DNA from: Pseudomonadota bacterium
GTDB taxonomy: Bacteria > Pseudomonadota > Gammaproteobacteria > Burkholderiales > Sulfuricellaceae
Direction of reading: 5' to 3'
NCBI GenBank assembly: GCA_021801705.1
Contig: JAJYXP010000009.1
Span: 1 to 64,000 of the forward strand
DNA: 64,000 bases
In this document: positions 2,602 through 25,148 of the stretch, in pieces
Numbering within the stretch: position 1 is the first letter of the stretch
Layout: every line of letters begins with the position of its first letter
The notes under the pieces: generated by a model
The model's input: the letters and a program-made list of their open reading frames with translations, nothing else
Database searches by the model: none
Told to the model about the DNA's origin: nothing
Translations under genes and position numbers: made by a program

Positions 2602-3567
2602 CTAAACTTTATCCAGCCACACCTCCAACCCCTGGGCATTAAGCTCGATATCGTTCGCCAGCAGCGCGACCGCCTCGTTTCTCGCCAGCTTGCAGCCGTG
2701 GGCGGCGAGGCGCTCCAGCAGATAGTTCTCCAGTTTTCCCGCCAGCAAGCGGTGACGTGCCTCACCCGCATCGCGCACATCTTCGGCAAGGCTCACGAAA
2801 TCATCCAGCAAACGGTGCAGGTCATCGGCCAGGCGCTGCAACCGGGTCACTCTGCCATAGTGGGTGAGGTAGGCGGCCCGTGGCTGGTGGGACATGATCA
2901 GGTCGATGGATGCATGCGCGGCCTCGGGCTCGAACTGCACCGGAGTGGTGGCGGGCAGGATGAACTCCCGCCCGTCCACATCGAACTCACGGTAGGAAAG
3001 CCCGAAGGTATCGCCGGTAAAGAAAGAACGGCTTTTCTCATCGAAGATGCTGAAATGATGGCGGGCATGGCCCGGCGTATCGAGGAACAGCAGGGTCCGG
3101 CCATGCAGTTGCAGCGTGAATTCGTGCGGCGCCTCGATGACACGTTGCGCCGGGACAGGCACAATCTCCCCGTATGCCAGCCTGAATTTTTCCTCTCCGT
3201 ACACCGCAATCGAGCCTGCCACCAGCTTCGCGGGATCGATCATGTGGCGCGCCCCGCGTGGATGGACCGCCAGCCTGGCATTCGGGAACAGGCGCATCAT
3301 CTCGCCCGCGCCGCCCGCATGGTCGAGGTGCACATGGGTGACGATCACATAGTCGATATCTTCCGGACGCATGTTTTTCCGGCGCAGCACTTCCAGCACG
3401 CCCGGCACCGAGAAATTCGTCCCGGTATCGATAATGGCCGCCCTGCCCCCCTCGGCCAAAAGGTGTATGGCCGCCAAACCGGGGCGGACATATAGCGCGT
3501 CGATGGTGGTGATCCCATCCTCGAAATCCTGGAAATCTGCGGTCATAACGCTCAACCTCTCATCCAA
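2602..3567 (-). CDS. MBL-fold metallo-hydrolase
   Basis: The 321-residue protein has the metallo-beta-lactamase core. The metal motif HVHLDHAGG, the downstream DTPGHARHHFSIF with its His ligand, and FFTGDTFG with the bridging Asp are all present. A C-terminal helical part contains the LTHYGRVTRLQRLADDLH stretch. It resembles stand-alone MBL hydrolases of glyoxalase II or quorum-quenching type, but the substrate cannot be assigned. ATG 3567 starts just before the N-terminal strand. It is divergent from the fumarase gene at 3614, and the 46-bp gap must hold both promoters. Confidence 0.88.
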   Translation of the reverse strand: MDERLSVMTADFQDFEDGITTIDALYVRPGLAAIHLLAEGGRAAIIDTGTNFSVPGVLEVLRRKNMRPEDIDYVIVTHVHLDHAGGAGEMMRLFPNARLAVHPRGARHMIDPAKLVAGSIAVYGEEKFRLAYGEIVPVPAQRVIEAPHEFTLQLHGRTLLFLDTPGHARHHFSIFDEKSRSFFTGDTFGLSYREFDVDGREFILPATTPVQFEPEAAHASIDLIMSHQPRAAYLTHYGRVTRLQRLADDLHRLLDDFVSLAEDVRDAGEARHRLLAGKLENYLLERLAAHGCKLARNEAVALLANDIELNAQGLEVWLDKV

Positions 3568-3613
3568 TCAGCAATTAACGGTACAATCCTGTTATCCAGT
3601 GAGTAAAAATACC

Positions 3614-5140
3614 ATGACAGCCATCCGCCAAGAAGACTTTATTGCCAGCGTCGCCGACGCGCTGCAATACATTTCCTACTACCACCCCATCGACTACATC
3701 AAGGCGCTGGGCGAGGCCTATGAGCGCGAACAATCGCCTGCCGCCAAAGACGCCATTGCCCAGATCCTCACCAACTCGCGCATGAGCGCGCAAGGACACC
3801 GCCCCATCTGCCAGGATACCGGCATCGTGGTGGCCTTTCTCAAGGTGGGCATGGAGGTGCGATGGGAATCCGGGCTCAGCCTCGCCGACATGGTCAACGA
3901 AGGCGTGCGCCGCGCCTACACCGACCCGGACAACGTGCTGCGCGCCTCGGTGCTGGCCGACCCGGCCGGCAGCAGAAAGAACACCGGCGACAATACCCCG
4001 GCGGTGATCCATTACGAGATCGTTCCCGGAGACAAGGTGGAAGTCACCCTCGCGGCCAAGGGCGGCGGCTCGGAAAACAAGGCAAAATTCGTCGTCCTCA
4101 ACCCATCGGACAGCATCGTCGACTGGGTGCTGAAAACCGTCCCCACCATGGGGGCCGGCTGGTGTCCGCCGGGGATGCTCGGCCTGGGGCTGGGCGGCAC
4201 GGCCGAAAAAGCCATGCTGCTTGCCAAGGAGGCCCTGATGGAGCCGGTCGATATCCACGAACTGCAAGCGCGCGGGCCGAAAAACCGGGTGGAAGAGCTG
4301 CGGCTTGAGTTGTACGAGAAGGTCAATGCGCTGGGCATCGGCGCACAGGGCCTGGGCGGCCTCACCACCGTGGTGGACGTCAAGATCAGGGACTACCCGA
4401 CTCACGCCGCCGGCCTGCCTGTGGCGATGATCCCCAACTGCGCCGCCACCCGCCATATTCACTTCACCCTCGACGGCAGCGGTCCGGCCGTGCTCGTTCC
4501 GCCCGACCTCAACGACTGGCCGAAAGTGGATTGGCACCCTGCCCCCGACGCGCGCCGCGTCAGCCTCGACACCGTCACGCGGGAAGAGCTTGCTTCGTGG
4601 CGCCCGGGCGAGACCCTGCTCCTGTCCGGCAAACTGCTCACCGGGCGCGACGCCGCCCACAAGCGCATCGCCGACCTGTTCGCCAAGGGGGAAAAACTGC
4701 CTGAAGGCGTGGACTTCACCAACCGCTTCATCTACTACGTCGGCCCCGTCGACCCGGTGCGCGACGAAGTGGTCGGCCCGGCCGGCCCCACTACCGCGAC
4801 ACGAATGGACAAGTTCACCGACATGATGCTGGATAAAACCGGCCTGATCGGCATGATAGGCAAAGCCGAGCGCGGCCCCGCAGCCATCGAAAGTATCCGG
4901 AAGCACAAGGCGGTTTACCTGATGGCGGTAGGCGGTGCGGCCTACCTGGTTGCCAAGGCGATCAAGGCATCCAGGGTGCTGGCCTTCGCCGATTTGGGCA
5001 TGGAAGCGATCTACGAATTCGAGGTCAAGGACATGCCGGTCATCGTGGCGGTAGACGCCAACGGCACGTCGGTGCATGAAACCGGACCGGCGGAGTGGCG
5101 CATGAAAATCGGCAAGATTCCAGTAGCAAAACATGATTAA
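3614..5140 (+). CDS. fumA: class I fumarate hydratase, [4Fe-4S]-dependent
   Basis: The 508-residue enzyme converts fumarate and L-malate in the TCA cycle. Cluster-ligand cysteines typical of class I fumarases are visible: Cys66 in ICQDTGI, Cys184 in GWCPPGM and Cys276 in NCAATRH. The C-terminal beta-type domain contains DAAHKRI and GPAGPTTATRMDKF. The open frame extends upstream to 3371, but that part is antisense to the MBL gene. ATG 3614 is the start that matches the family N-terminus (TAIRQEDFIASVADALQYI). Its stop TAA merges with the beginning of a dispersed repeat. Length is normal for the single-chain enzyme. Confidence 0.95.
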   Translation: MTAIRQEDFIASVADALQYISYYHPIDYIKALGEAYEREQSPAAKDAIAQILTNSRMSAQGHRPICQDTGIVVAFLKVGMEVRWESGLSLADMVNEGVRRAYTDPDNVLRASVLADPAGSRKNTGDNTPAVIHYEIVPGDKVEVTLAAKGGGSENKAKFVVLNPSDSIVDWVLKTVPTMGAGWCPPGMLGLGLGGTAEKAMLLAKEALMEPVDIHELQARGPKNRVEELRLELYEKVNALGIGAQGLGGLTTVVDVKIRDYPTHAAGLPVAMIPNCAATRHIHFTLDGSGPAVLVPPDLNDWPKVDWHPAPDARRVSLDTVTREELASWRPGETLLLSGKLLTGRDAAHKRIADLFAKGEKLPEGVDFTNRFIYYVGPVDPVRDEVVGPAGPTTATRMDKFTDMMLDKTGLIGMIGKAERGPAAIESIRKHKAVYLMAVGGAAYLVAKAIKASRVLAFADLGMEAIYEFEVKDMPVIVAVDANGTSVHETGPAEWRMKIGKIPVAKHD

Positions 5141-9152: not shown

Positions 9153-9481
9153 ACCGCCGCTTGAGTGGCATGAGAGAGGTTGCGGTAGGGGCAGCAATTA
9201 CCTGCCCCCCCCCCGCACGGATCCGTACGTACAGCATTCCCGCATATCGCTCCTGCCCCAGTAGTCGGTTACGTTGAAGTTCGGGATGTAGGTCGGGCTT
9301 CAGCCCGACATGTCGGGTTAAAACCCGACCTACGTCATGTGGAAACCGTTGATGCGCGTCAGATTAACATCGCAAAATCGAACCGGTAGGCTCGCATAAA
9401 AGTTCGGGGCGGTCTTCGCTCACGAGCAGCGCAGCCCTTCCCGGAGCAACTCCTCCAGACGGGCAAGGCCCAGCAACACGG
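9153..9481. repeat. gene-free stretch with a 46-bp double hairpin and a decayed TAGTC end
   Basis: The 329-bp gap between the MCP gene and ftsK encodes nothing I can support. It contains TAGTCGGTTA near 9262, resembling a decayed TAGTCAGTCA element end. A 46-bp double hairpin follows at 9288-9333, beginning GTAGGTCGGGCTTCAGCC and ending AACCCGACCTAC. The same 46-bp design occurs at 25822, 41857 and 48385. Confidence 0.75.
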
Positions 9482-11942: not shown

Positions 11943-12156
11943 CGGTTCATCCCCACGGGCGTGGGGAACACCATCGGTGACCGAAGAAGAAGGGGGATAC
12001 AACTGCGGTTCATCCCCACGGTCGTAGGGAACACCAGTACGGGCTGGACATGATCATTGTGGATTACGGTTCATCCCCACGGGCGAGGGGAACACTGCAC
12101 CAGGTCGATTCCCTGCTGCGCGCGCGCCGGTTCATCCCCACGCCCTTGGGGAACAC
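11943..12156. CRISPR. short degenerate type I-E-like CRISPR array
   Basis: Four 29-bp repeats start at 11943, 12006, 12067 and 12128. Each begins CGGTTCATCCCCAC and ends with GGGAACAC (GGGGAACAC in three of the four), like the type I-E consensus. The central bases differ in every copy (GGGCGTGGGG, GGTCGTAGGG, GGGCGAGGGG, GCCCTTGGGG), and the spacers are 34, 32 and 32 nt. No type I-E effector genes are in the window. The decay in the hairpin region suggests a relic array. Confidence 0.85.
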
Positions 12157-12328
12157 TGCAACACTCCGGAAGAAAGGGCTGCTTGTTACTGCAACACCGA
12201 GCGCGCGTTTACAGACTGAATGGGGCGATTGTTCGGGTGGTGCATCGCATGTGCAAAATGCTCGATCTGCTCCTTGGAGGCTGAAACGGAATTCTTCATG
12301 ACGAGCCAGCGTACACCCTCACTGGGGT
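12157..12328. other. 172-bp gap between the two CRISPR arrays
   Basis: No gene, full repeat or obvious promoter is recognisable here. Short open frames crossing it are not supported by any ribosome-binding site or family resemblance. Confidence 0.6.
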
Positions 12329-15300
12329 GCGATTAAACAGTCCCGCCCCGAAGGACGGGCGCTACCGCGATGGACGCCCGCTCTTTCCGTGATTTCGTTA
12401 CGTTTCAATCCTCGCCCGCCCCGAAGGACGGGCGCTACGTGGTGTTGCTACAGGCGTGGTTATAGGCGCGGGCGTTTCAATCCTCGCCCGCCCCGAAGGA
12501 CGGGCGCTACCGGATATTTTGGGTGCGATTACCGGTATCTGGACGTTTCAATCCTCGCCCGTCCCGAAGGACGGGCGCTACCTGCACGCCGGCTCCGGTA
12601 CCATCCGGGCTGACGATGTTTCAATCCTCGCCCGTCCCGAAGGACGGGCGCTACCTGGGTATTTCGTGGTACCTGATGTCGAGCGGCGGTTTCAATCCTC
12701 GCCCGTCCCGAAGGACGGGCGCTACTTCGACGGCGAGGACGATCATGTGCATCTCCTGGTGTTTCAATCCTCGCCCGTCCCGAAGGACGGGCGCTACGGC
12801 ACGCGTCACCCTTTGAAGGAACTCTGAATCATGTTTCAATCCTCGCCCGTCCCGAAGGACGGGCGCTACCTGGGTAGGTGTGCATCACGCCCAGGGCTGA
12901 TGACGTGTTTCAATCCTCGCCCGTCCCGAAGGACGGGCGCTACAGACCGTGCTTCGGGCCCTGGCTGGTCGATACGAGTTTCAATCCTCGCCCGTCCCGA
13001 AGGACGGGCGCTACCATCGCCCTGCGACTGCACCTGCGAAGTGATGTAGTTTCAATCCTCGCCCGTCCCGAAGGACGGGCGCTACAATGCCGTGTCTGTC
13101 TCGGCGTTTGCGCCGTTGATGTTTCAATCCTCGCCCGTCCCGAAGGACGGGCGCTACGTCAGGTTGCGCGAGAACACGATGCTTTTGCCGTTGTTTCAAT
13201 CCTCGCCCGTCCCGAAGGACGGGCGCTACTTGACGCAAGCGCCAAAAAACTTACATCATAAATGTTTCAATCCTCGCCCGTCCCGAAGGACGGGCGCTAC
13301 CATTTGATTTGGATCAATAGCGGGAGCGCGAGACTGTTTCAATCCTCGCCCGTCCCGAAGGACGGGCGCTACTGAATCCGATGCGCAAGGCAACCTTGGC
13401 GTAGCCGGTTTCAATCCTCGCCCGTCCCGAAGGACGGGCGCTACAGCATCGGCGAGCTGGCGCACCGGCTCAACATGCAGTTTCAATCCTCGCCCGTCCC
13501 GAAGGACGGGCGCTACCCGAGGCGCGGTAGGTTTGCGTTTGCATCCCATGAATTGTTTCAATCCTCGCCCGTCCCGAAGGACGGGCGCTACGGGTGGAGA
13601 TACACCCAAACTGATAGGTGCAGTGCGCGTTTCAATCCTCGCCCGTCCCGAAGGACGGGCGCTACTTCAGGCGGGGTGTTGGTCAGCACATGGTCAAACC
13701 AGTTTCAATCCTCGCCCGTCCCGAAGGACGGGCGCTACCAGGATCGACCACCATGGGCTGCGCGTGTCGCCGGGTTTCAATCCTCGCCCGTCCCGAAGGA
13801 CGGGCGCTACGCCGCCCGGGAGATTCTTGACCCATACCACCGGGACGTTTCAATCCTCGCCCGTCCCGAAGGACGGGCGCTACTTTCCCCAAATGATCGA
13901 TGGCCGTTGAGTATCTGGGTTTCAATCCTCGCCCGTCCCGAAGGACGGGCGCTACATCGGAGCTGAAGTTCCTCAAGGTACACAATACATGTTTCAATCC
14001 TCGCCCGTCCCGAAGGACGGGCGCTACATGCGGCAAATTTGCAGCCTATGGAGGCAAAAACGTTTCAATCCTCGCCCGTCCCGAAGGACGGGCGCTACTT
14101 GGGACTCGTGCCATGAAATACACTAGGACACTAGTTTCAATCCTCGCCCGTCCCGAAGGACGGGCGCTACTGGCGATGCGGTTGGCGTGGGAGGCGCCCT
14201 TTTCCTGTTTCAATCCTCGCCCGTCCCGAAGGACGGGCGCTACGTCGGACAGGTCGTAGAGCGGCGTCACGTTCGGGGTGTTTCAATCCTCGCCCGTCCC
14301 GAAGGACGGGCGCTACTGGCGTTGAATGCGTTTGTCAGTTTGATCAGAGCCGGTTTCAATCCTCGCCCGTCCCGAAGGACGGGCGCTACAATGCCGTGTC
14401 TGTCTCGGCGTTTGCGCCGTTGATGTTTCAATCCTCGCCCGTCCCGAAGGACGGGCGCTACAAGCTGGTCGAAGTTCGTCCCGGTGCCGATGACCTGTTT
14501 CAATCCTCGCCCGTCCCGAAGGACGGGCGCTACATCGCCACACCTCGGACGGCATGGCAGGAAACTTGTTTCAATCCTCGCCCGTCCCGAAGGACGGGCG
14601 CTACGCTGTAGGCGGGATTGGTGGTGTCCAGCGTAACGGTGTTTCAATCCTCGCCCGTCCCGAAGGACGGGCGCTACCCGCACGTTGGATAACCCAGATC
14701 GAATCGTCGGTTACGTTTCAATCCTCGCCCGTCCCGAAGGACGGGCGCTACGTTGATCGCGCTCTGTACTGCCGTGGCGAAGCTTGTTTCAATCCTCGCC
14801 CGTCCCGAAGGACGGGCGCTACTGGCGATGCGGTTGGCGTGGGAGGCGCCCTTTGTCTGTTTCAATCCTCGCCCGTCCCGAAGGACGGGCGCTACCGTGG
14901 CGCCGGCAGGCAGGCCGGTCACATGGACCTGTTTCAATCCTCGCCCGTCCCGAAGGACGGGCGCTACTCGGTTCTGGTGGAGTAGGAATTTGGTGCGGGA
15001 TGTTTCAATCCTCGCCCGTCCCGAAGGACGGGCGCTACTTTCCAGCTTCCTGCCGGGCTTGCCACTTCGCTATAGTTTCAATCCTCGCCCGTCCCGAAGG
15101 ACGGGCGCTACAAATGCACGCAATTGATGCGGACGCCGAAGAATGGGTTTCAATCCTCGCCCGTCCCGAAGGACGGGCGCTACAAATGCACGCAATTGAT
15201 GCGGACGCCGAAGAATGGGTTTCAATCCTCGCCCGTCCCGAAGGACGGGCGCTACGCCGGGATCGTCATCAATGGCGGCGGCCTCCCGGTGTTTCAATCC

Positions 15301-16330
15301 TCGCCCGTCCCGAAGGACGGGCGCTACTACCAACAGCGCCACGGTCGGCGAGCTTAAATCCGTTTCAATCCTCGCCCGTCCCGAAGGACGGGCGCTACGT
15401 TGATGGTGCGGTTGGTCTGCACCAGCAAGATCGGTTTCAATCCTCGCCCGTCCCGAAGGACGGGCGCTACGCGGAAACCAAGGCGGGAGCGCAGGCCATC
15501 GTGGTTTCAATCCTCGCCCGTCCCGAAGGACGGGCGCTACAGGATCAGCCAGCGATGAAGCGTCGTCGATGTTTTGTTTCAATCCTCGCCCGTCCCGAAG
15601 GACGGGCGCTACCCATGGCGAGCGGACGGGGAGACATGCTGCCGTCGTTTCAATCCTCGCCCGTCCCGAAGGACGGGCGCTACTGGCCATCTGGGCCTCC
15701 GCTTATGGGGTTGTTTTGTTTCAATCCTCGCCCGTCCCGAAGGACGGGCGCTACTGGTTTTTGCTGATGGTGGTCGTGATCTTATGCAGGTTTCAATCCT
15801 CGCCCGTCCCGAAGGACGGGCGCTACCAGGAAATAGAAGGTTCGCTGATATGCCATTGATTGGTTTCAATCCTCGCCCGTCCCGAAGGACGGGCGCTACG
15901 CGCTAACTTGGAGAGAACGATGGACGCAAAGACGTTTCAATCCTCGCCCGTCCCGAAGGACGGGCGCTACGCCGATCCCTTGCGCTTCCAGTTCCTTGAT
16001 AAGTGTTTCAATCCTCGCCCGTCCCGAAGGACGGGCGCTACAATGTAGGCCGGAGACAATAGAGTCAGCCCGGAGCGTTTCAATCCTCGCCCGTCCCGAA
16101 GGACGGGCGCTACAAAACCTACTCATTGGTTATTAAAAACATGTGGGATGTTTCAATCCTCGCCCGTCCCGAAGGACGGGCGCTACAGCAGGCGGCGTAA
16201 TTCACCCTCCCTGTCACCTGGAGTTTCAATCCTCGCCCGTCCCGAAGGACGGGCGCTACATGGCCGTACGGAGCCTAATCTTCGTTTGCGCAGGTTTCAA
16301 TCCTCGCCCGTCCCGAAGGACGGGCGCTAC
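12329..16330 (-). CRISPR. type I-C CRISPR array, 55 full repeats plus a decayed terminal repeat
   Basis: On the minus strand the 37-bp repeat starts GTAGCGCCCGTCC and ends GGATTGAAAC, the type I-C 3' end. It has a 9-bp stem around a CGAA/TTCG loop. I count 55 full copies, from 12402-12438 to 16294-16330, separated by spacers of about 33-37 nt. A 56th copy at 12329-12365 has lost its GTTTCAAT half. The two most distal full copies carry a C for T change in the stem. The leader is on the cas2 side, so the newest spacers lie near 16.3 kb. Several spacers are duplicated (13086/14390; 15112/15184; 14171/14823 nearly). Cas5c would process the transcript. Confidence 0.97.
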
Positions 16331-16508: not shown

Positions 16509-16799
16509 TCATGCCAGCAACGGTCCCTCGAAATCCACCGCACGAAAACAACCATATTCCCTGACATGTAGCCGCGTGGGTTCGGTGATGCGATAGATGC
16601 GCAAATTGTCCTCTTCTTTGTTGATTTCTTCCAGCAACCTTCTTTCCAGTTCCTCGAAGCGGACCAAATCCACTTGGCATTCGAAGACTGATTTCTGTAC
16701 CCGTTGGCCAACGCCTTCGCAAAGCTTTGCCACCCTGCGCAACCGCCGCCGGCCTTCGCGAGTTTCGGTAGAAACATCATAGGTGACGATGACAAGCAT
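16509..16799 (-). CDS. cas2: CRISPR-associated endoribonuclease Cas2
   Basis: The 96-residue protein starts [20 protein letters not shown], the conserved Cas2 first strand with its metal-binding Asp, and continues with [12 protein letters not shown]. Cas2 dimers bridge two Cas1 dimers in the spacer-integration complex. It begins 2 bp after the cas1 stop codon on the same strand and is the last gene before the leader. Length is normal for type I-C Cas2. Confidence 0.97.
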
Positions 16800-16801
16800 G
16801 G

Positions 16802-17839
16802 TTATTTGGCAAGGAACGGCAAATAACCTTCCATCTCGCCGCGCACCGTGCGGGCGAGTAGGCGCGCCTGAAGCAGGGGCACGAGGCCGAGAGGCATTTT
16901 ACTATCCAGCAGGGGATGGGTAATTTCCTCCTGCTTGCGTTCCTGATAAGCAACGATGACGGTTTTGCGAGCATCGTCTCCCAGTTGCACCGCGCCACCC
17001 TCCCGCTCGTGGAAATCTTTTTCGCTGATCTGCCCACGGTTCACAAGAGTAAGTGCCAGCCGGTCGGCGACGATAGCGCGGAATTCTTCCATGAGGTCGA
17101 GGGCTAGTGCCGCCCGTCCCGGACGCACGGCATGAAGGAAACCCAATTGAGGATCGAGGCCAACGGCCTCCAGCGCCGAGCGGCAGTCGTTCATGAGCAT
17201 GGAATAGAGGAAGGAGATCAGGGCGTTAAAACTATCGCGGGGCGGGCGGCGGGAGCGCCCGTTCATGGCGAAGGCAGGGCGTACATCCCGGCGCACCAGG
17301 GCTGGCATGGCCTCGAAATAGGTCTTGGCGGCTTCGCCTTCTACGCCGCGCAGGGCGTCGAGATCAGCCGCAACGGCAGCCGCGCGCAAAGAGGCGGCAA
17401 GATGCTCAGCGGCGGCGCGCAGGATTTGGCCGTCTTCATCTTCGTTGGCGTCCCGCGCACCGCGCTGCAAAACATAACGACTGTTCCTGATCTTGCCCGC
17501 GATGATGGCTCGGGCGGTTTCCAGGGCAAAGGCGGGGGTGTCCGCCTGCTGGTGTTGAGCACGCCGCAGCAGGATGTTGCCGCTCACCGCTCCTTCCAGC
17601 CGCGCCTTGAAGCGTCCGTGACCGTTCAGCAACACCAGGCTGATGCCTTCATCCGCGCAGCGGTGCATCAATGCCGGGGAAAGCATGATGTTGCCCAGGC
17701 AAACCACACTGCCCAGATGATGCAGCGGCACCTGCAACTTCTTTTCGTGCTCCACATCCACCCGCACCGTGTCGTTCTCCAGATGGAGATAGGAGTTCGG
17801 CGTCATGACATAAAGGGTATTGAGAATCTGGCGCGCCAT
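16802..17839 (-). CDS. cas1: CRISPR-associated integrase Cas1, type I-C
   Basis: The 345-residue metal-dependent integrase captures new spacers. The N-terminal beta domain begins [20 protein letters not shown]. The catalytic helical domain carries [12 protein letters not shown] (Glu), [19 protein letters not shown] (His and Asp region) and [13 protein letters not shown]. It starts directly after cas4 and runs into cas2, so the three adaptation genes form one unit. No frame damage is seen, which suggests adaptation could still work. Confidence 0.97.
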
Positions 17840-17841
17840 TT

Positions 17842-18468
17842 TTACGTTGCTCCCGGCTCAAACAAGGTTTCCAGCAAAACATGCTGCGTTGCACGCGCAG
17901 CGACAGCCTGCGGCTGGCAGATTTCCTTCAGCGAACACTCCTTGCAGCGCGCATCGTTGACCGGGGGCGGTAGCTTGCCGGACTCCATCATGGCGCGGAT
18001 AGCATTCACGGTTTCTTCCACCTTATCGCGCAATGCCTGAGTAATCGCCACCTCACGCCTGCGCCGCGAACCGTGGTGGTAAATCGCGCCGTGCGTGATG
18101 ACCTTGCCGGTCATCTCTTCCAGACACATCGCCTGCGCCGCAAGCTGGATGTCATCGTGGGATTTTTCACGCTTGGGGCCATGTTTATATTCCACCGGAT
18201 AAATATGCCCGTCTGGATGAAACTCCACCACATCGCACTTGCCAACCAGCCCCAGCCGTTCCGACCACACCGGCAATGCCCGCTCGGCACGCACACCCTC
18301 GAAGGTTTCAAACCCCGGATCATCCACCCGCTCATGTGCTGCGTTGCCGCGCATAGTGAAAACGTTTTCATCGAATGCCTGCTCAACATGAATCAGCGCG
18401 CACTGGCGCGGGCAATAGCTCCAGTGCTGAAGCGCGGAAAGCATGATGGGGTCGGCTGCTTCGTTCAT
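17842..18468 (-). CDS. cas4: CRISPR-associated exonuclease Cas4
   Basis: The 208-residue protein is a RecB-like nuclease that trims prespacers and helps select the PAM. Visible features are the first Fe-S cysteine region SYCPRQCALIH near residue 18, the active-site GKCDVVEFH and YPVEYKHGP (Asp, Glu and Lys), and the C-terminal CKECSLKEIC cluster cysteines. It is the first gene of the cas4-cas1-cas2 unit. Its start codon is 51 bp from, and divergent to, the antitoxin gene at 18520, so the adaptation genes need their own promoter here or readthrough across the module. Confidence 0.96.
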   Translation of the reverse strand: MNEAADPIMLSALQHWSYCPRQCALIHVEQAFDENVFTMRGNAAHERVDDPGFETFEGVRAERALPVWSERLGLVGKCDVVEFHPDGHIYPVEYKHGPKREKSHDDIQLAAQAMCLEEMTGKVITHGAIYHHGSRRRREVAITQALRDKVEETVNAIRAMMESGKLPPPVNDARCKECSLKEICQPQAVAARATQHVLLETLFEPGAT

Positions 18469-18519
18469 GGCAGTGGTGCTATCATATTACTTGCAACCTT
18501 TGAATTTAAGGAGGGCATC

Positions 18520-18768
18520 ATGGCAGCGATATTGAAAGAAATTGAAGACCAGGCGTTAAGTCTGACGCCCAAGGAGCGAGGCGAATTGATCCACCGCCTA
18601 ATCGTCAGCCTGGAAGGCGAAGCAGAAGACTCACCCGAAGCCATTGCCAAAGCATGGGATGAAGAAATCGCCCGCCGCGTAGCGGACATGGAAGCTGGCA
18701 AAACGGTCTGGATTCCAGCAGAAGAAGTTTTCGCTCGGCTCGACGCCATTATTGATAGCGCTCGCTGA
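18520..18768 (+). CDS. antitoxin, addiction-module component family
   Basis: The 82-residue protein begins MAAILKEIEDQALSLTPKER and has the short acidic helical pattern of the putative addiction-module component family (TIGR02574-like), for example ELIHRLIVSLEGEAEDSPE and AWDEEIARRVADMEAG. Such proteins neutralise RelE/ParE toxins. A strong AAGGAGGG ribosome-binding site lies upstream of ATG 18520. The toxin gene begins 3 bp after its stop. The module runs against the cas genes and splits the canonical type I-C order between cas7 and cas4. Confidence 0.88.
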   Translation: MAAILKEIEDQALSLTPKERGELIHRLIVSLEGEAEDSPEAIAKAWDEEIARRVADMEAGKTVWIPAEEVFARLDAIIDSAR

Positions 18769-18771
18769 TTG

Positions 18772-19065
18772 ATGCACGTCTCGTTCAATCCAGAGGCGCT
18801 CGCTGAAGCAGAAGAAGCGACCCATTGGTATCGAGATAATGGCGGATCATCGCCCAGCCGCGCTTTCACCCAGGAATTGCGGCGCGTCGTCCGTCTGGCC
18901 GCCGAGCAACCCGGTGTCGGCAATGCTGGACCGCATGGAACGGTTCGTCTGAATTTCAAGCGTTTCCCCTACACATTGGTTTTTCAAATTCAGGGCGCAT
19001 CCGTCAGAGTAATCGCGATTGCCCATCAAAGCCGCCGCCCTGGGTATTGGGTTGGGCGGCGTTGA
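18772..19065 (+). CDS. RelE/ParE-family toxin
   Basis: The 97-residue protein has the compact RelE/ParE pattern: VSFNPEALAEAEEATHWY at the N-terminus, then RAFTQELRRVVRLAAEQPGVG, RLNFKRFPYTLVFQI and VRVIAIAHQSRRPGYW at the end. The last motif is typical of plasmid-stabilisation ParE-like toxins that act on gyrase or on mRNA. The frame could start at TTG 18769, but ATG 18772 is the better choice. It is paired with the antitoxin just upstream. It converges with the HicB-like gene at 19103. Confidence 0.88.
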   Translation: MHVSFNPEALAEAEEATHWYRDNGGSSPSRAFTQELRRVVRLAAEQPGVGNAGPHGTVRLNFKRFPYTLVFQIQGASVRVIAIAHQSRRPGYWVGRR

Positions 19066-19102
19066 GATTTCAGCATTTTTTGATCAAGGTCATGCGGCAG
19101 TT

Positions 19103-19309
19103 TCATGCCGCGAGCACCTCTTCCCGCCCGATATGCAAGCGAATAACCTTGGGCATATCGCCTGCGTCGAAATGGCAATGCACCGCGTCCTGCACCATCT
19201 GGCGCAACTCCGGCAAGGTATCCGCCTCTGTAAGGATAGAATCGCCCAACGCCCGCGCGGTGTAACCGCCTTCGGGAGCTTGCTCCACGAGAAATAGAAC
19301 TTCACTCAT
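19103..19309 (-). CDS. HicB-like small protein, unpaired
   Basis: The 68-residue protein begins MSEVLFLVEQAPEGGYTARA and continues ILTEADTLPELRQMVQDAVHCHF. This is the partial RNase-H-like HicB fold often mis-annotated as a 2-oxoisovalerate dehydrogenase fragment. A GCGGAGG ribosome-binding site precedes ATG 19309. The gene starts 13 bp after the cas7 stop and in the same direction, so it is probably transcribed with the effector genes. No HicA partner is visible next to it. It may be an antitoxin remnant or a stand-alone regulator. Confidence 0.75.
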   Translation of the reverse strand: MSEVLFLVEQAPEGGYTARALGDSILTEADTLPELRQMVQDAVHCHFDAGDMPKVIRLHIGREEVLAA

Positions 19310-19322
19310 ATTACCTCCGCAT

Positions 19323-20204
19323 TCAACCCACTATACGTTGCAATGATACACCCGCAGGAATGTGGGCATCATCTACCGTCACGCTGTAGTCGGCAAAGTC
19401 ACGCGCTGGTTCCTCGGTGTTTTTCTTAGCTTGAATCAACTCAAAGAGCTTGTGCGCGGGGGCGTTGCCTAATTCACTGTCATGCTTGAAGACATACAGC
19501 CCGCGCGTGGACATTTCTCCTCTGGCGGCAGATCGGTCATGCTCGAACATCTGCGCCAGTGCCTGCCAGAGCAATTCCAGATCGTTCTCATCGAAGCCGG
19601 TTTGCTTGGCGAGGAATGAAGACACGAAGCCGTGGGCGGCATAAAGGCCGTAAGGCACAGTGAACTTGCGCCCCATGGTGCGGTTGTCGCCGGATTGTTT
19701 TTCGGCTTCGGCTTCGGTGGCAACCGCCATGCGGGTGATGGCATGTTCCTGCGCCACAATGGGGTCTATCGAGCGGGCGAAAGTCAGTTGCACCGGCCCG
19801 CGCACTTGGCCGCAATTCACGCCGGTGGACATGACTGCACCGAAGGTACGCACGTCGTAAAAATTCTTGCACATCCAGTCGCGTGCCTCGCCGACCTTGT
19901 CGCCGCCTTTACGCTTTTTGTCCTCGCCGCCCAGCAAGTCCGCCGCACCGATGCCCTGATAAGCCCGTTCGTGCTGCTTGTTGAGGATGGCCTTTTCCTT
20001 GACGTAAATCTCGAACGGCGGTTGCTCGCCCTTGACGATGCCGACGAAATTGCGCACCTTGCGCTTGAGGCTCACGTCCGTCACCAGGCCGCGCCCGGTT
20101 TCATCGTCCATACGCGGCATATTGCCGGCATCCGGGTCGCCGTTGGGATTGCCGTCCTTCACGTCAAACAAAAGTACAAAATCGTAGCGATTATTCAGAG
20201 TCAT
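19323..20204 (-). CDS. cas7: type I-C Cascade backbone protein Cas7
   Basis: The 293-residue protein (Csd2 type) polymerises along the crRNA to form the effector backbone. Typical motifs are [20 protein letters not shown] at the N-terminus, then [18 protein letters not shown] and [19 protein letters not shown]. The start ATG lies inside the last codons of cas8c (14-bp overlap) and has an AAGGAGACGAGC leader, so expression is coupled. Length is normal for the subtype. Confidence 0.97.
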
Positions 20205-21924
20205 GCTCGTCTCCTTGCGTCTTATAGGTGGAAGGGTGTTGTTTCTGGTGGTAGTAACCTACGGCAAAACTGCCTTGGTCGTTCAGTGACAAAACCGGTA
20301 GAAATGGCTTATCCGGCTCCAGTGCGCCCATGATGGCGCCGACCAGTTTCTCAAGATTAACCGCTCGTCCCGGCTTCTCTCGTCGGATTTTCGCCAAGTG
20401 CTTGGTGGCAAGGTTAATCAGTCTTGGAAAGGCTTTGCCAGGCGTGCCGGAAGCCGCGCCCCATAATGTGTTGCGGATAGTTGCCCGGATGCCCGGATTA
20501 GCCTCCTCCTGAATACGCTCCAGCACCGCGAACAGCCTGCCCAGCCGATAGGCGGGATTGATATTGTTTTCGTCCAGTGACACTTTGAGTTCCTCCTTCC
20601 CAGAGTAACGGTTAAGACACGCCTTGATGATGGCAGCGCGCGGATAAGTAACTTCCTGTTCGGCGCGGATGCGGCGAATGGCGCCGGCAAGCAGAGTTTG
20701 CGGATAGGGCAGCCCTTCGATCACGCTACGCATCAGTTCGCCCCCCAGATTGGGAGGGATGTTCTCAGCCTTGCCCAGCGTCGCCGTGGCGACCAGCAGG
20801 CGGAACAGCGTCAGCGTTTCCGGTTCGTGCGGGGCATGGGCAATGCGCAAATCATCGAAATGGCGGTGGATATTAACGGCCAGCTCACCCACCGTTTTGA
20901 CATGCCAAAAGCGCACGGCAATGCGGGCAGCGTTAGGCGCCAACCCCAGCACGTAAAAGCGCGTGCCGTCGTCCTCGAAGCTGTCGGCGCCGGTTCTCGG
21001 CGCAGCCAGCCATGCCGCGACAGCTTGCGTGCCGTGATCGGGGTCATCTTTGGACGCTTCGCTGAAAAAACCGGGAAACAGCTCTTCCATCGGATGGCCG
21101 GGCTTTTCCGCCCAGAACACGGTGGAAGCGTCGCCGACCTGGATGCGCTGTCGCGAACCTTTGGCCAACAGGTGATTGAGCGCGGTGGTGTAAGCAAAGG
21201 CGGCGCGCTTGCCCACCGGGGCGTTGCCACCCTGCACCTTGCCGTAGGAACTGAACGCATCCAGGTTGAACGAGACGATATTGGCTCCGGCTGTCTGAGC
21301 TCCCCACACCCCTTTTACCGAGGGATGCAGACGTTCGATCACATCGGTTTCGCCCGACACCAAGCACAGCCCGGTTGCGCCCGCGTCGCCCTGGCTGGCG
21401 GCGGTGAGCGTATCCACCACAGCCTCGCGCTCGCATACCGGGCAAATGTCCCCTTCCAGCCGGAAAGTCAGGTTGGCTCCGCTTTCCAGAATTTCCGGCC
21501 AGAGCGGATGTGCGAAAACCCGTTCGAAATCGCCGCACTCAAGAAACGCCAGCACTGCCTGGATACCGGCATCTAGTGGTGACGCAAAGCGGGCGCGTAG
21601 CGCCGAGATAAAAGCCGAATGCTGCTCGTGCACCCGTTCTGGTTTGCCCTTGGTATCCACGCCGAACATGTAGCCAGAGTTGTCCCACAGCAGATTGGCG
21701 GCCACACCGGAAGAGCGCTTGACCGTCTGCGGCACCAAAAAACTTTTCGCTGCCCGCTTCTTGCCCTCGCCTTCGCGGGTATCCTCCAGCGCGGCGAAAT
21801 CGCCCGTTGACGTCAGCACCACGACGAAAGGGATAGGTTTGTGCTCAAAACCCAGTGGTGCCAGATCGCTTCCCGGCAGCCGGGTTTTACGCTGGTAATA
21901 ATCGTTGAGCGCCTGCAAGATCAT
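20191..21924 (-). CDS. cas8c: type I-C large subunit Cas8c
   Basis: The 577-residue Csd1-family protein recognises the PAM and recruits Cas3. It begins [13 protein letters not shown], the standard start of this family. It then shows [32 protein letters not shown] and a [13 protein letters not shown] segment, and ends with the small-subunit-like helical region that type I-C translates as Cas11. ATG 21924 overlaps the cas5 stop as ATGA; the slightly longer upstream frame is rejected. Internal translation of a Cas11c small subunit is likely by family knowledge, but I could not fix its start. Confidence 0.96.
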
Positions 21925-22586
21925 CCTCGTATCTCCTCGCTCTCCCAACCCGGCACCGACAACACGCCGTTTTCCAGCCTGGCGTGGAAAAAACGCGGCT
22001 GCGGATCGGCGGCATGGGTGTAATCCAGATCATGCAGCATCCAGCCCAGGTCGCGGGTTTCCGAGATAGCGGCGGCTTGCGGTTGCGCGCTATCCACCAG
22101 CCGGAAATCACAGGCAAATTCGCGGCAGCCGAGATAGGGCTGGTTGACGCATTGGCCTTTTTCGGCGCGGCGCTCGAACATATCCATGAACTTGCCCGGT
22201 GTGTTGTTTTCGCCGGCATTGGGCAGTAACTCGAAATGGGCGTGGATGCGGTAGGCCACGTCGCGTAGGAACAGCCCGGCGCGCTGCTGGCGCTCGTCTT
22301 CCACGTTCAGGCCGAGCAGCCCCGCCCCCTTGTTCATGGCTTCCTGCGCGTTGCGCACCGAGGCCACCGCCCCCACCTCGTTGCGCCGCACCGAAATCCA
22401 TTTGATCGGCTTCAATACCTCGATCTTGCCGACATGCCAGCGGATGGCCGGCTTCCACAGGATGGACTCGAACACCGCACGCGCGGCAGAAGGCGTCATC
22501 ACGTCGTAGCTCACCCGCTCGACCTTCATTTCCGGGCGGGTGAAACAGGCGAAATCGCCGCTGACTTCAAGACAGTAAGTTTTCAA
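21921..22586 (-). CDS. cas5: type I-C crRNA-processing protein Cas5c, TTG start
   Basis: Cas5c replaces Cas6 in type I-C and cuts the repeat hairpin. The 221-residue product starts (M)KTYCLEVSGDFACFTRPEM, exactly where the family normally starts, if TTG 22586 is used. A GGGAGG ribosome-binding site sits 8 bases before that TTG. The longer ATG-started frame to 22709 would add 41 unrelated residues and is rejected. KVERVSYDVMTPSAARAVF and RWHVGKIEVLKPIKW are further family motifs. It overlaps cas8c by 4 bp and follows a possible small membrane-peptide ORF. Confidence 0.95.
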   Translation of the reverse strand: MKTYCLEVSGDFACFTRPEMKVERVSYDVMTPSAARAVFESILWKPAIRWHVGKIEVLKPIKWISVRRNEVGAVASVRNAQEAMNKGAGLLGLNVEDERQQRAGLFLRDVAYRIHAHFELLPNAGENNTPGKFMDMFERRAEKGQCVNQPYLGCREFACDFRLVDSAQPQAAAISETRDLGWMLHDLDYTHAADPQPRFFHARLENGVLSVPGWESEEIRG

Positions 22587-22588
22587 AT

Positions 22589-22714
22589 CTAATGCCTCCC
22601 ATACATTACGCCGACTAGCGCTACCAGCATCAGCAACCACATCGCCCAAAATCGTGACGTTGGCAATTGAAGCAACAATAGCCTGACCTCTCGCATCAAT
22701 CCCTTCCAATCCAT
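22589..22714 (-). CDS. possible 41-residue single-span membrane peptide upstream of cas5
   Basis: The frame starts MDWKGLMREVRLLLLQL at ATG 22714, contains a hydrophobic span FWAMWLLMLVALVGVM, and ends YGRH at a TAG two bases before the cas5 TTG. Its last codons contain the GGGAGG used by cas5, which would couple the two. The ribosome-binding site of its own (GGGTGG) is weak and I know of no homologous family. It may be only leader DNA. An upstream ATG at 22780 would extend it to 63 residues. Confidence 0.35.
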   Translation of the reverse strand: MDWKGLMREVRLLLLQLPTSRFWAMWLLMLVALVGVMYGRH

Positions 22715-22806
22715 GACACCACCCAAGCAGGACATAAGACGGAAGAAATAATATTCTTCATTAGAAGTTATTGCAACCACCCTCTCAATTAGGTACCATT
22801 CATCTG

Positions 22807-22836
22807 CGCTCTATACTCTTGAGCGAGGGTTGAAAC
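22807..22836 (-). promoter_or_regulatory. candidate promoter/operator region for cas5-cas8c-cas7
   Basis: CGCTC and GAGCG arms (22807-22811, 22821-22825) flank a minus-strand AAGAGTATA that could be a -10 region. Next to it is GGGTTGAAAC, which resembles the last ten bases of the type I-C repeat. The position upstream of the effector operon fits a regulatory site. The signals are short and the call is tentative. Confidence 0.3.
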
Positions 22837-22861
22837 ATTAGTAGTTGATTCGTTGTAAATG

Positions 22862-22886
22862 GGGGCCACCTCAAACGAGGTGGCCC
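22862..22886 (-). terminator. hairpin downstream of cas3
   Basis: GGGCCACCTCG and its complement form a strong stem just beyond the cas3 stop codon. Only a short T run (ATTT) follows in the minus direction. It would separate cas3 transcription from the cas5-cas8c-cas7 unit, at least partly. Confidence 0.6.
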
Positions 22887-22889
22887 TAC

Positions 22890-25148
22890 CTACCCAATCA
22901 GCCCTGCTGGCGAAAGCGCGATACTATCCGTCAACAACCCAATGTCCTCGTCGTACAGTCCGGTAGTGCTCTGCACATACACCCCTGGAAATATTTCCCG
23001 AATATCCCGATTTGCCAGCAGCTTTTTGCATTCCCCCTCGCGGATATTGACGGTATAGCGTTGCAGCTTGCGCAGCAGTCCACGGCGCTCGTGCGGCTCC
23101 ATTACCGCCTTGGATTCGAGTATGGCAATCAGCCTGGGACTCTCGCCGTAACGCACGATCACGGCGGTCTGGCCTTCTTCGTCGATCAGGCGGAAGCGGC
23201 TGGCTGCGGCGCGGAAATTGAATTCGCCCTGGCGTGCGCCGGCACGGTTGTGCATGTCCAGCAGGCCGATGATGTCGGCCTTGTCCAGACTGTTGAGGCC
23301 AGCGTAATAAGTGCGGAAATAGGCTTCAAAGCGTTCGCGGGTAAGCGGTTCGCCTACCGTCAAGCGCATTACTTCCTGCCCGCTTTGCTGCGCCTTGCGT
23401 AGCAGTCCCGGCGCGGCGGGCTTGGGCGGCACGAACACCACCACGCGCCCCAAATCGGGTAATGCGCCTTCGCGATTGCAGCGCCCGGCGGCTTGGGCAA
23501 CGGCGTCCAGCCCGGCCAGGGCGCGATAAACCACGGGGAAATCCATGTCCACCCCGGCTTCCACCAATTGCGTGCTGACGACGCGCGTCGGAATGCGGTC
23601 TTTCAGCTTTTGCTTGATGTCGGCAATCACCCGGCTGCGATGCTGGCCGCACATCAGGGCCGAAAGATGGATCGTGTCCTTGGGCATCAAGCGGTGCAGT
23701 TCACGGCAATCGGCGCGGGAATTGACGATGCACAGCACCGACGGGTATTGCTGCAATTGCGCGGCGATGGTCTCCCAACTCTGGGGGGCGCTGAAATCGG
23801 CAGGCAGTTCGGTTTCCACCCGCTTGAGATCGGCGTAAAGCGCATCCGGGTCGTCCATCAATTCGCGCACACCGTTCAGGCCGGGGAATTTGGGGCGCGG
23901 CGAAAAGGCCGGTTGGGTGGCGGTGGACAGCACGAAGGTCACGCCGTAGTTGGGGCGCGCCAAGTCGTCCATCACATGCAGGATGGGCGCGAGAAACTCC
24001 GGTGGCAGCAATTGCGCCTCGTCCAGCACCGCCACGCTGTTGACGATGTTGTGCAGCTTGCGGCAACGGCTGCCACGGGCGGCGAACAGCGACTCGAAAA
24101 ATTGTACGTTGGTGGTCACAATGATGGGCGCATCCCAGTTTTCCGCCGCCAAGCGGCTGCGGCTGTCTTCCTTTTCGGGGTCGAGGTTACTGTGATGTTC
24201 GATGACGTTTTCTTTACCGAAAATATCGCGGAAAATTTCGGCGGTCTGCTCCAGAATGCTGGTGTAGGGGATGACGTAAATCACGCGCCGCTTGCCGTGA
24301 TGAATGGCATGGTTCAACGCAAACGCCATGCTGGAAAGCGTCTTGCCGCCGCCGGTGGGCACGGTAAGCGAGAACAGGCCGGAAGGCTGTTGCGCTTTTT
24401 CCCGGCACTGGCGCAGCACGTCAGCGCGGATGGCATTTACTGGAGAATTTTCGGCTTTGGCGGCCTTGTCCGCCATGTGCCGGTCGAAAAGCGGCAGCAA
24501 TGCTTGCAGCGGCGGGTAACCCGCACGTTTCGCGCCCTTGCTTTCGTCCATGAAGGCTTCGGTATCGAGAAAATCGGCATCCGTTACGCAGGAAAACAAC
24601 ATCCTGATCCACAACGCCAAGGAGCCTTGCGGCGGTAACGTGGTTGGGCGCGCTTTGCCGAGGATTTCTTGCGGCGGCGAAGCAGCCAAGGCTTCTTGCA
24701 GGTACCCCTTCCTTTTTCCTTCTTCCACTCGGCTGAACAACGAGGAGCGGCCTTCCTCCGCGCTGTTCCAGTCCGGCAAGCCTGCATGGTGGCCGGCAAT
24801 CAGGTAGGCCAAAATACGCCCTTGCAATCCAAACCTTTCCAGTGCATGAATCGCCCCCGCCGTGGAGTGGTCTACACGTCCAGCCGCGCCTTCGATATGG
24901 GCTTCCGGGTCGTATCCGCTGGCCTTTTTGATGTAGCCCTGAAATTTTTCGCGGAATTTCCCCAAGTCGTGCCACAACCCGGCGATGCTCGCCCAATCAC
25001 GTGAATCGAAATCGGCCGCGAAATCACCGGCTATTCGGGCTACTCCGTGAAGGTGCTCATCCAACAAGTGTTCGTGCCAGCCACCCGCACTATCTTGACG
25101 TACATGAGCCAGCACTCGATTTTCGTGTCTATTGTTCATGCCACCCAT
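22890..25148 (-). CDS. cas3: CRISPR-associated helicase-nuclease Cas3
   Basis: The 752-residue protein degrades DNA marked by Cascade. An N-terminal HD nuclease domain (SIAGLWHDLGKF, AGRVDHSTAGAIHAL, YLIAGHHAGLPDW) is fused to a superfamily 2 helicase with Walker A VPTGGGKTLSSMAFALNHA, the DEAQ form of box II (VLDEAQLLPPEFL) and QLVEAGVDMDFPVVYR. All expected motifs are present, so interference looks intact. ATG 25148 follows GGAGG by 7 bases. The upstream HIRAN and SEC-C genes run the same way and may share its transcript. Confidence 0.97.
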   Translation of the reverse strand: MGGMNNRHENRVLAHVRQDSAGGWHEHLLDEHLHGVARIAGDFAADFDSRDWASIAGLWHDLGKFREKFQGYIKKASGYDPEAHIEGAAGRVDHSTAGAIHALERFGLQGRILAYLIAGHHAGLPDWNSAEEGRSSLFSRVEEGKRKGYLQEALAASPPQEILGKARPTTLPPQGSLALWIRMLFSCVTDADFLDTEAFMDESKGAKRAGYPPLQALLPLFDRHMADKAAKAENSPVNAIRADVLRQCREKAQQPSGLFSLTVPTGGGKTLSSMAFALNHAIHHGKRRVIYVIPYTSILEQTAEIFRDIFGKENVIEHHSNLDPEKEDSRSRLAAENWDAPIIVTTNVQFFESLFAARGSRCRKLHNIVNSVAVLDEAQLLPPEFLAPILHVMDDLARPNYGVTFVLSTATQPAFSPRPKFPGLNGVRELMDDPDALYADLKRVETELPADFSAPQSWETIAAQLQQYPSVLCIVNSRADCRELHRLMPKDTIHLSALMCGQHRSRVIADIKQKLKDRIPTRVVSTQLVEAGVDMDFPVVYRALAGLDAVAQAAGRCNREGALPDLGRVVVFVPPKPAAPGLLRKAQQSGQEVMRLTVGEPLTRERFEAYFRTYYAGLNSLDKADIIGLLDMHNRAGARQGEFNFRAAASRFRLIDEEGQTAVIVRYGESPRLIAILESKAVMEPHERRGLLRKLQRYTVNIREGECKKLLANRDIREIFPGVYVQSTTGLYDEDIGLLTDSIALSPAGLIG

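Follow-up and report, generated by a model that had tools for sequence, protein, structure and literature searches.

The 64,000-nucleotide stretch of DNA analysed here (the window) carries a complete type I-C CRISPR-Cas locus on its minus strand, in which cas3-cas5c-cas8c-cas7 are followed by cas4-cas1-cas2 and then by a long array. The interference genes are cas3 (22890–25148, with HD and helicase parts matching PF18019 and PF22590; TIGR01596, 98 bits against a cut-off of 43), cas5c (21921–22709; TIGR01876, 225 bits against 85), cas8c or Csd1 (20191–21948; TIGR01863, 605 bits against 219) and cas7 or Csd2 (19323–20204; TIGR02589, 417 bits against 182). On the adaptation side lie cas4 (17842–18468; TIGR00372, 139.4 bits against 65), cas1 of type I-C (16802–17839; TIGR03640, 516 bits against 385) and cas2 (16509–16799; TIGR01573, 67.3 bits against 24.5), and the array at 12402–16330 holds about 56 repeats of 37 nt. 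With cas8c, cas7 and cas5c above their cut-offs and an array matching RF01322 (CRISPR-DR9), the locus belongs to type I-C.

Some further features of the window were seen around these genes. Four copies of a different repeat, CGGTTCATCCCCACGGGCGTGGGGAACAC, directly adjoin the type I-C array at 11943–12163 with a spacing of about 61 nt, resembling a remnant of a type I-E array. The gap between cas3 and cas5 (22710–22889) is unusually long, the cas5 start lying close to cas3 in other type I-C loci, and cas5 of the window seems to have an unconserved N-terminal extension of 41 aa. An intergenic 33-nt near-palindrome with the core CCCGACATGTCGGG is located at 9285–9336; a similar element, GTCGGGTTAAAACCCGAC, occurs in the cas3–cas5 gap of a related locus (L013), and the two are probably copies of a dispersed repeat.

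Between cas7 and cas4, on the strand opposite to the cas genes and divergent from cas4, lies a toxin–antitoxin (TA) pair. The antitoxin gene (18520–18768, plus strand, 82 aa) matches PF09720 with 46.9 bits against a cut-off of 23.3 and TIGR02574 with 42.1 bits against 31.9, and is preceded by a purine stretch like a ribosome-binding site (GGAGG region, 18513–18517, plus strand). Only 3 bp separate its stop codon from the ATG at 18772 of a ParE-family toxin gene (18772–19065, plus strand, 97 aa; PF05016, 42.9 bits against 23). Antitoxin and toxin genes are thus adjacent in one operon, each above its family cut-off, which is the arrangement of a type II TA system. Profile matches and coordinates bear out the sequence-only reading that a TA pair is wedged between the interference and adaptation genes of a type I-C locus. 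The predicted structure of the toxin has the ParE fold, with 6xrw, 8c24 and 5cw7 as the best solved matches. The antitoxin model consists of four helices; compared with the PDB, it gave no match, and no solved DNA-binding fold or ribbon-helix-helix fold was recognised. PF09720 is matched a single time in the 2.84-Mb genome, at the CRISPR locus; a second antitoxin of this family, able to neutralise the toxin after loss of the pair, was not found in these 2.84 Mb. Searches for a mobile origin gave no match to the pair on plasmids, phages or viral contigs.

The plus-strand pair was correctly named within the stretch 18468–19309, but a HicB-like antitoxin gene on the minus strand of the same stretch (19103–19309, 68 aa) had been overlooked. 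This gene is colinear with cas7, starts 13 bp after it and has no Pfam match of its own; its product is 81% identical to HicB of an intact HicBA pair found at the same place in two related loci (L005/L088). It is followed by the remnant of a hicA gene (19084–19104, minus strand; ATG AAA CTG CCG CAT GAC CTT, MKLPHDL), which is cut after seven codons at the point where the ParE pair begins, and no complete HicA is present. An identical truncation after the seventh codon occurs in L018, and intact HicBA pairs occupy the same position in seven loci (L005, L006, L008, L085, L086, L088 and L090). Because hicA is broken at the start of the ParE pair, and in the same way in the related L018, an older HicBA pair has most likely been replaced by the ParE pair in the window.

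The start codons of cas4 and of the antitoxin gene are separated by 51 bp (18469–18519), and here too the coordinates agree with the divergent arrangement described before. This gap is 41–63 bp in 23 of the 24 CRISPR-linked loci compared and 73 bp in L102. It contains a conserved box, TGCTATCAT (18477–18485, plus strand), which has the form of an extended -10-like element and lies 8 bp from the cas4 start codon. Across loci, the box reads TGCTA(C/T)CAT or a near variant, usually 39–44 nt before the antitoxin ATG and about 8 bp from the cas4 start. In a standalone copy of the pair (L147), the box reads TGGTACCAT and is equally far from the antitoxin start; it is absent upstream of the PF09720 antitoxins compared from outside the clade. 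Since the box moves with the TA pair, and a standalone copy distant from cas4 retains it, it is read as the promoter of the TA pair itself, the upstream part of which would then fall in the first codons of cas4. An operator specific to cas4 was rejected as the leading reading of the box, because the standalone copy has it as well. A consensus scan for promoters and terminators gave nothing clearly above chance, and no sigma-70 promoter was recognised for cas4, which may be transcribed by read-through from cas7. The earlier claim that two promoters must overlap in this region is therefore too strong.

The same order of genes was searched for in related genomes and found conserved. A toxin scan over contigs of one genome per species, covering 85,000 species, gave 73 relatives. 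Toxins at least 70% identical to that of the window all occupy the cas4–cas7 junction in a single orientation, the antitoxin start being turned towards that of cas4, and this position is common to several families of bacteria; the sole exception is a pair beside a decayed cas locus that is reduced to a cas7 fragment (L020). Antitoxins of 98–100% identity adjoin cas4 in L004 and L010–L013. Many toxins of 34–44% identity also sit at this junction, in loci with divergent type I-C effectors, although these distant relatives were partly found via the common C-terminal motif QSRRPGYW and the scan is therefore not an even sample. Loci of these distant toxins also include an I-C-like effector set below the I-C cut-offs (L056, with cas3 next to the junction), and the effector set of L017 is I-C-like with no NCBIfam Cas8 model matched. 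In a tree of 67 toxins, the clade of the window comprises 12 members with a support of 100/100 and is entirely CRISPR-linked; over the whole tree, the CRISPR label changes 4 times against 20.3 times in shuffles, and none of 500 shuffles was as low. Some loci recur under several labels in these overlapping sets (L010, L084 and L177 are one locus, and L018, L145 and L176 another).

When the antitoxin alone was searched, eight of nine matches of at least 69% identity adjoined cas4. The exception is the standalone copy (L147/L172), located between transporter and gyrase-like genes, and it belongs to the more distant relatives; among close relatives, the module was not found at unrelated places. 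A direct repeat of roughly 50 bp flanks the standalone pair of L172 (9336–10130), whose promoter box is preceded by a stretch like the 5′ end of cas4, as would be seen in a pair that had left a CRISPR locus. In a phylum-wide sample, ParE-type genes were present at the junction in five of seven loci of another class with close cas4 genes, there in colinear orientation, and loci with more distant cas4 genes were empty. Recurrence across many genomes excludes the chance insertion that the sequence-only reading had left possible, and from these comparisons the pair is a long-term resident of the locus. A meaningless recent insertion, or an artefact of assembly, would find its only support in the absence of the pair from some relatives and has a negligible probability, as the same arrangement is present in independent assemblies from several families.

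The junction itself was surveyed with loci sampled by cas4 alone; 300 genomes from the order and 369 from the class yielded 37 loci whose cas4 reached an identity of about 52% or more. A junction was counted as enlarged when its gap exceeded 200 bp with both neighbours in the contig, and duplicate loci were left out of the counts. By this measure, the cas4–cas7 junction is enlarged in 17 of 30 loci and the cas1–cas4 junction in 7 of 36, and no enlargement was seen for cas2–cas1 (0/27) or cas7–cas8 (0/13); Fisher tests of the cas4–cas7 enlargement gave p = 9e-7 against cas2–cas1 and p = 4e-4 against cas7–cas8. Recognisable TA genes of unrelated families fill 16 of the 17 enlarged cas7–cas4 junctions, and the remaining one is degenerate, with a DUF5615-like remnant (L103). 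ParE pairs in this survey are divergent from cas4 and HicBA pairs are colinear with the cas genes; other contents are PIN toxin, VapBC, Phd-PIN, RHH-MazF, MNT/HEPN, zeta-like, DUF433/DUF5615 and MqsA-like (YgiT/DUF4258) genes. Within the window's own family, eight loci differ in what they have at this seam, with a ParE pair, HicBA, HicB with VapBC, or MNT/HEPN, between the adaptation and interference genes. About 40% of the loci of close relatives have nothing at the cas7–cas4 junction (for example L087, L097, L098 and L120), so a TA pair is not needed for the CRISPR locus.

A second site was seen between cas4 and cas1, where an RHH-antitoxin/MazF pair lies antisense to the cas genes in several families (L010 at 3156–3868, L011, L012, L017, L043, L084 and L093). 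The same junction has an unclassified 105-aa gene in L101, and a gene of the nucleotide-modification-associated Nmad2 type in two genomes of one genus (L104, 894–1517; L105, 864–1472). Among the more distant cas4 loci, RhuM-family genes adjoin cas4 in L131, L134, L135 and L138, and KilA-N/Bro-N genes are present in L130.

Pairwise identities correlate within cas4/cas1/cas2 (0.73–0.85) and within cas7/cas8 (0.80), and no such correlation links the two groups (cas1 with cas7, r = -0.01). Adaptation and effector modules have therefore been exchanged at the seam. The toxin tracks cas4 (r = 0.33, permutation p = 0.0095) rather than cas7 (r = 0.13, p = 0.15), and the link is modest. Among close relatives, dN/dS is 0.01–0.13 for the antitoxin and mostly 0.08–0.15 for the toxin (0.10–0.15 for the toxin of the window), similar to cas4 and cas1, which indicates that both TA genes are under purifying selection. 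Damaged modules combine a broken toxin with an intact antitoxin (L018/L145, L019, L020, L030 and L148); an intact toxin with a broken antitoxin was never found in the CRISPR-linked set. Such toxin-first decay is expected if the toxin is truly toxic. Toxin decay has occurred on several occasions while the cas genes were kept, so that a locus can escape from any addiction. In CRISPR-linked pairs, the antitoxins are better conserved than the toxins, by about 0.15 in identity, against a difference of about -0.05 in other PF09720 pairs; as the compared pairs are not independent, this excess is a lead and no proof of a further job of the antitoxin.

We propose, with a probability of about one half, that the pair is an addiction module at the seam that stabilises the type I-C locus. 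A ParE-type toxin would be held in check by a labile antitoxin, and when the locus is deleted, or exchanged by recombination for one that lacks the pair, the supply of antitoxin would be lost and the leftover toxin would poison the cell. Transcription of the TA genes probably starts just outside cas4, at the conserved box, and runs away from cas4, so that any read-through from cas7 to cas4 would be antisense to the TA genes. The toxicity of the toxin and the lability of the antitoxin are presumed, and stabilisation of the CRISPR locus would be what selection sees. In favour of this reading are the constant position and orientation of the pair, its conservation under purifying selection, the toxin-first decay, the exchange of TA families at the seam and the lack of a second PF09720 antitoxin in the genome; the empty junctions of close relatives, the standalone copy, the modest toxin–cas4 correlation and the repeated decay of toxins count against it. 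A guard function of the pair is plausible.

The strongest competing explanation is that selfish pairs hitch-hike at a recombination seam. Modules would be exchanged at the cas7/cas4 and cas4/cas1 junctions, and TA pairs would arrive with the exchanged DNA, be tolerated since no cas gene is cut, and be kept by their own addiction without benefit to CRISPR. We regard this as a real possibility, but a less likely one. It fits the independent evolution of the modules on either side of the seam and the many unrelated TA families at one spot, with remnants of replaced pairs such as the orphan hicB of the window and L018. One standalone copy exists outside CRISPR loci, and TA genes are common in defence islands. 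However, the contents of the seam are almost exclusively of TA type or phage-regulator type, and the toxin clade of the window is constant in position and orientation across several families. Moreover, cas1 and cas4, which normally overlap or touch, also take up TA pairs between them, hence spare room between genes does not by itself account for the inserts. Confinement to the junctions that flank cas4 speaks, though not decisively, against mere tolerance of inserted genes.

A stronger version of the addiction-module reading is that this TA clade has been domesticated to lock the adaptation half of type I-C systems in place, so that loss or swapping of a module at the seam is penalised, and that the antitoxin has acquired a second CRISPR-related job, either in regulating cas4 or in contacting a Cas protein. 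Such a job would explain both the unusual conservation of the antitoxin and its outliving of the toxin, but we hold this version to be doubtful.

It was also suggested earlier that an autoregulating antitoxin could control cas4-cas1-cas2. In this scheme, the antitoxin or the TA complex binds the 51-bp region and the state of the toxin sets spacer acquisition. The narrow range of gap lengths and the conserved box next to the cas4 start are consistent with it, as are the conservation of the antitoxin above the toxin in CRISPR-linked pairs, unlike in other PF09720 pairs, and the survival of antitoxins after their toxins. Against these points, no DNA-binding fold was recognised in the antitoxin model, and the box, found ahead of the standalone copy as well, belongs to the TA promoter. 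Loci of the HicBA type are colinear without such a shared region, no sigma-70 promoter was found for cas4, and TA-free loci manage without this control. Judged from sequence and structure models, antitoxin control of cas4 is possible without positive support, and the coupling as a whole is improbable.

Even less probable is a role as an abortive-infection back-up, in which disturbance by a phage or an anti-CRISPR, or shut-down of host transcription, frees the toxin and stops the infected cell when CRISPR fails. The pair sits inside a defence operon, and toxins of such TA systems have roles in phage defence in other settings; nevertheless, no phage trigger is visible in the sequence and the spacers do not clearly target the region. 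The best spacer match in the cas region is 71% ungapped at 20098, outside the TA genes, and three shuffles gave 63–66%. This back-up corresponds to the immunity–suicide coupling hypothesis (PMC3506569), which predicts toxins built into immune loci, as at the seam of the window. However, immune loci are said there not to encode typical antitoxins, whereas the seam loci described here do.

The addiction-module reading gives the pair the role known from CreTA, the RNA toxin–antitoxin guards of type I systems (PMC9458426, PMC10097628), which likewise lie within the CRISPR locus and make the cell dependent on it. In CreTA, a CRISPR-like RNA with ectopic repeats acts with Cascade to silence an RNA toxin, whereas both parts of the present pair are proteins. 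Repeat and spacer scans of the locus gave no convincing creA-like ectopic repeat near the TA pair, and the best full-repeat match in the locus was no better than in shuffles. A 16-nt stretch resembling the repeat start in the cas3–cas5 gap (22821–22836, minus strand) was rejected, as its identity over the full repeat is 20/37, the same as in shuffles; the homologous gap of L013 has no repeat-like match. On these scans, an organisation like that of CreTA was rejected. The toxin, moreover, is a 97-aa ParE-family open reading frame with a dN/dS mostly of about 0.1 and not a small RNA. Compared with the type II systems ParDE and PaaA2-ParE2, the toxin fold matches solved ParE toxins, but the antitoxin is of the PF09720 family, with no ribbon-helix-helix recognised and no solved relative.

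TA genes inside cas loci are not new, and the sequence-only reading went too far in treating a protein module in this position as a novelty. Zhang, Doak and Ye (2013; PMC3936711) counted TA genes in cas loci, including Unstab_antitox (PF09720, three sequences) and MazE and Phd/YefM antitoxins with toxins, so the same families are found there, that of the window among them. The passages concerned give counts and single examples, and describe no fixed seam position, orientation, clade, replacement or decay. In Sulfolobales, vapBC pairs are interspersed in cas cassettes and maintenance of CRISPR-Cas has already been proposed for them (PMC4390879). These are likewise type II pairs inside cas cassettes, but they are archaeal VapBC, with an example in type III-D, whereas in the window a ParE-type pair, and other families elsewhere, occupy one seam of bacterial type I-C loci. 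A TA hot spot with a fixed position at the type I-C seam, a long-lived ParE clade, replacement among TA families and antitoxin-last decay were not found described in the open-licence literature.

CRISPR-Cas loci are often gained and lost. The question of how they are retained is open, and the guard that has been demonstrated, CreTA, uses RNA. If protein TA pairs repeatedly occupy the type I-C seam, protein guarding, or selfish hitch-hiking, would become directly testable with small clonable pairs. The TA pairs at the seam also mark the point at which adaptation and interference modules are exchanged.
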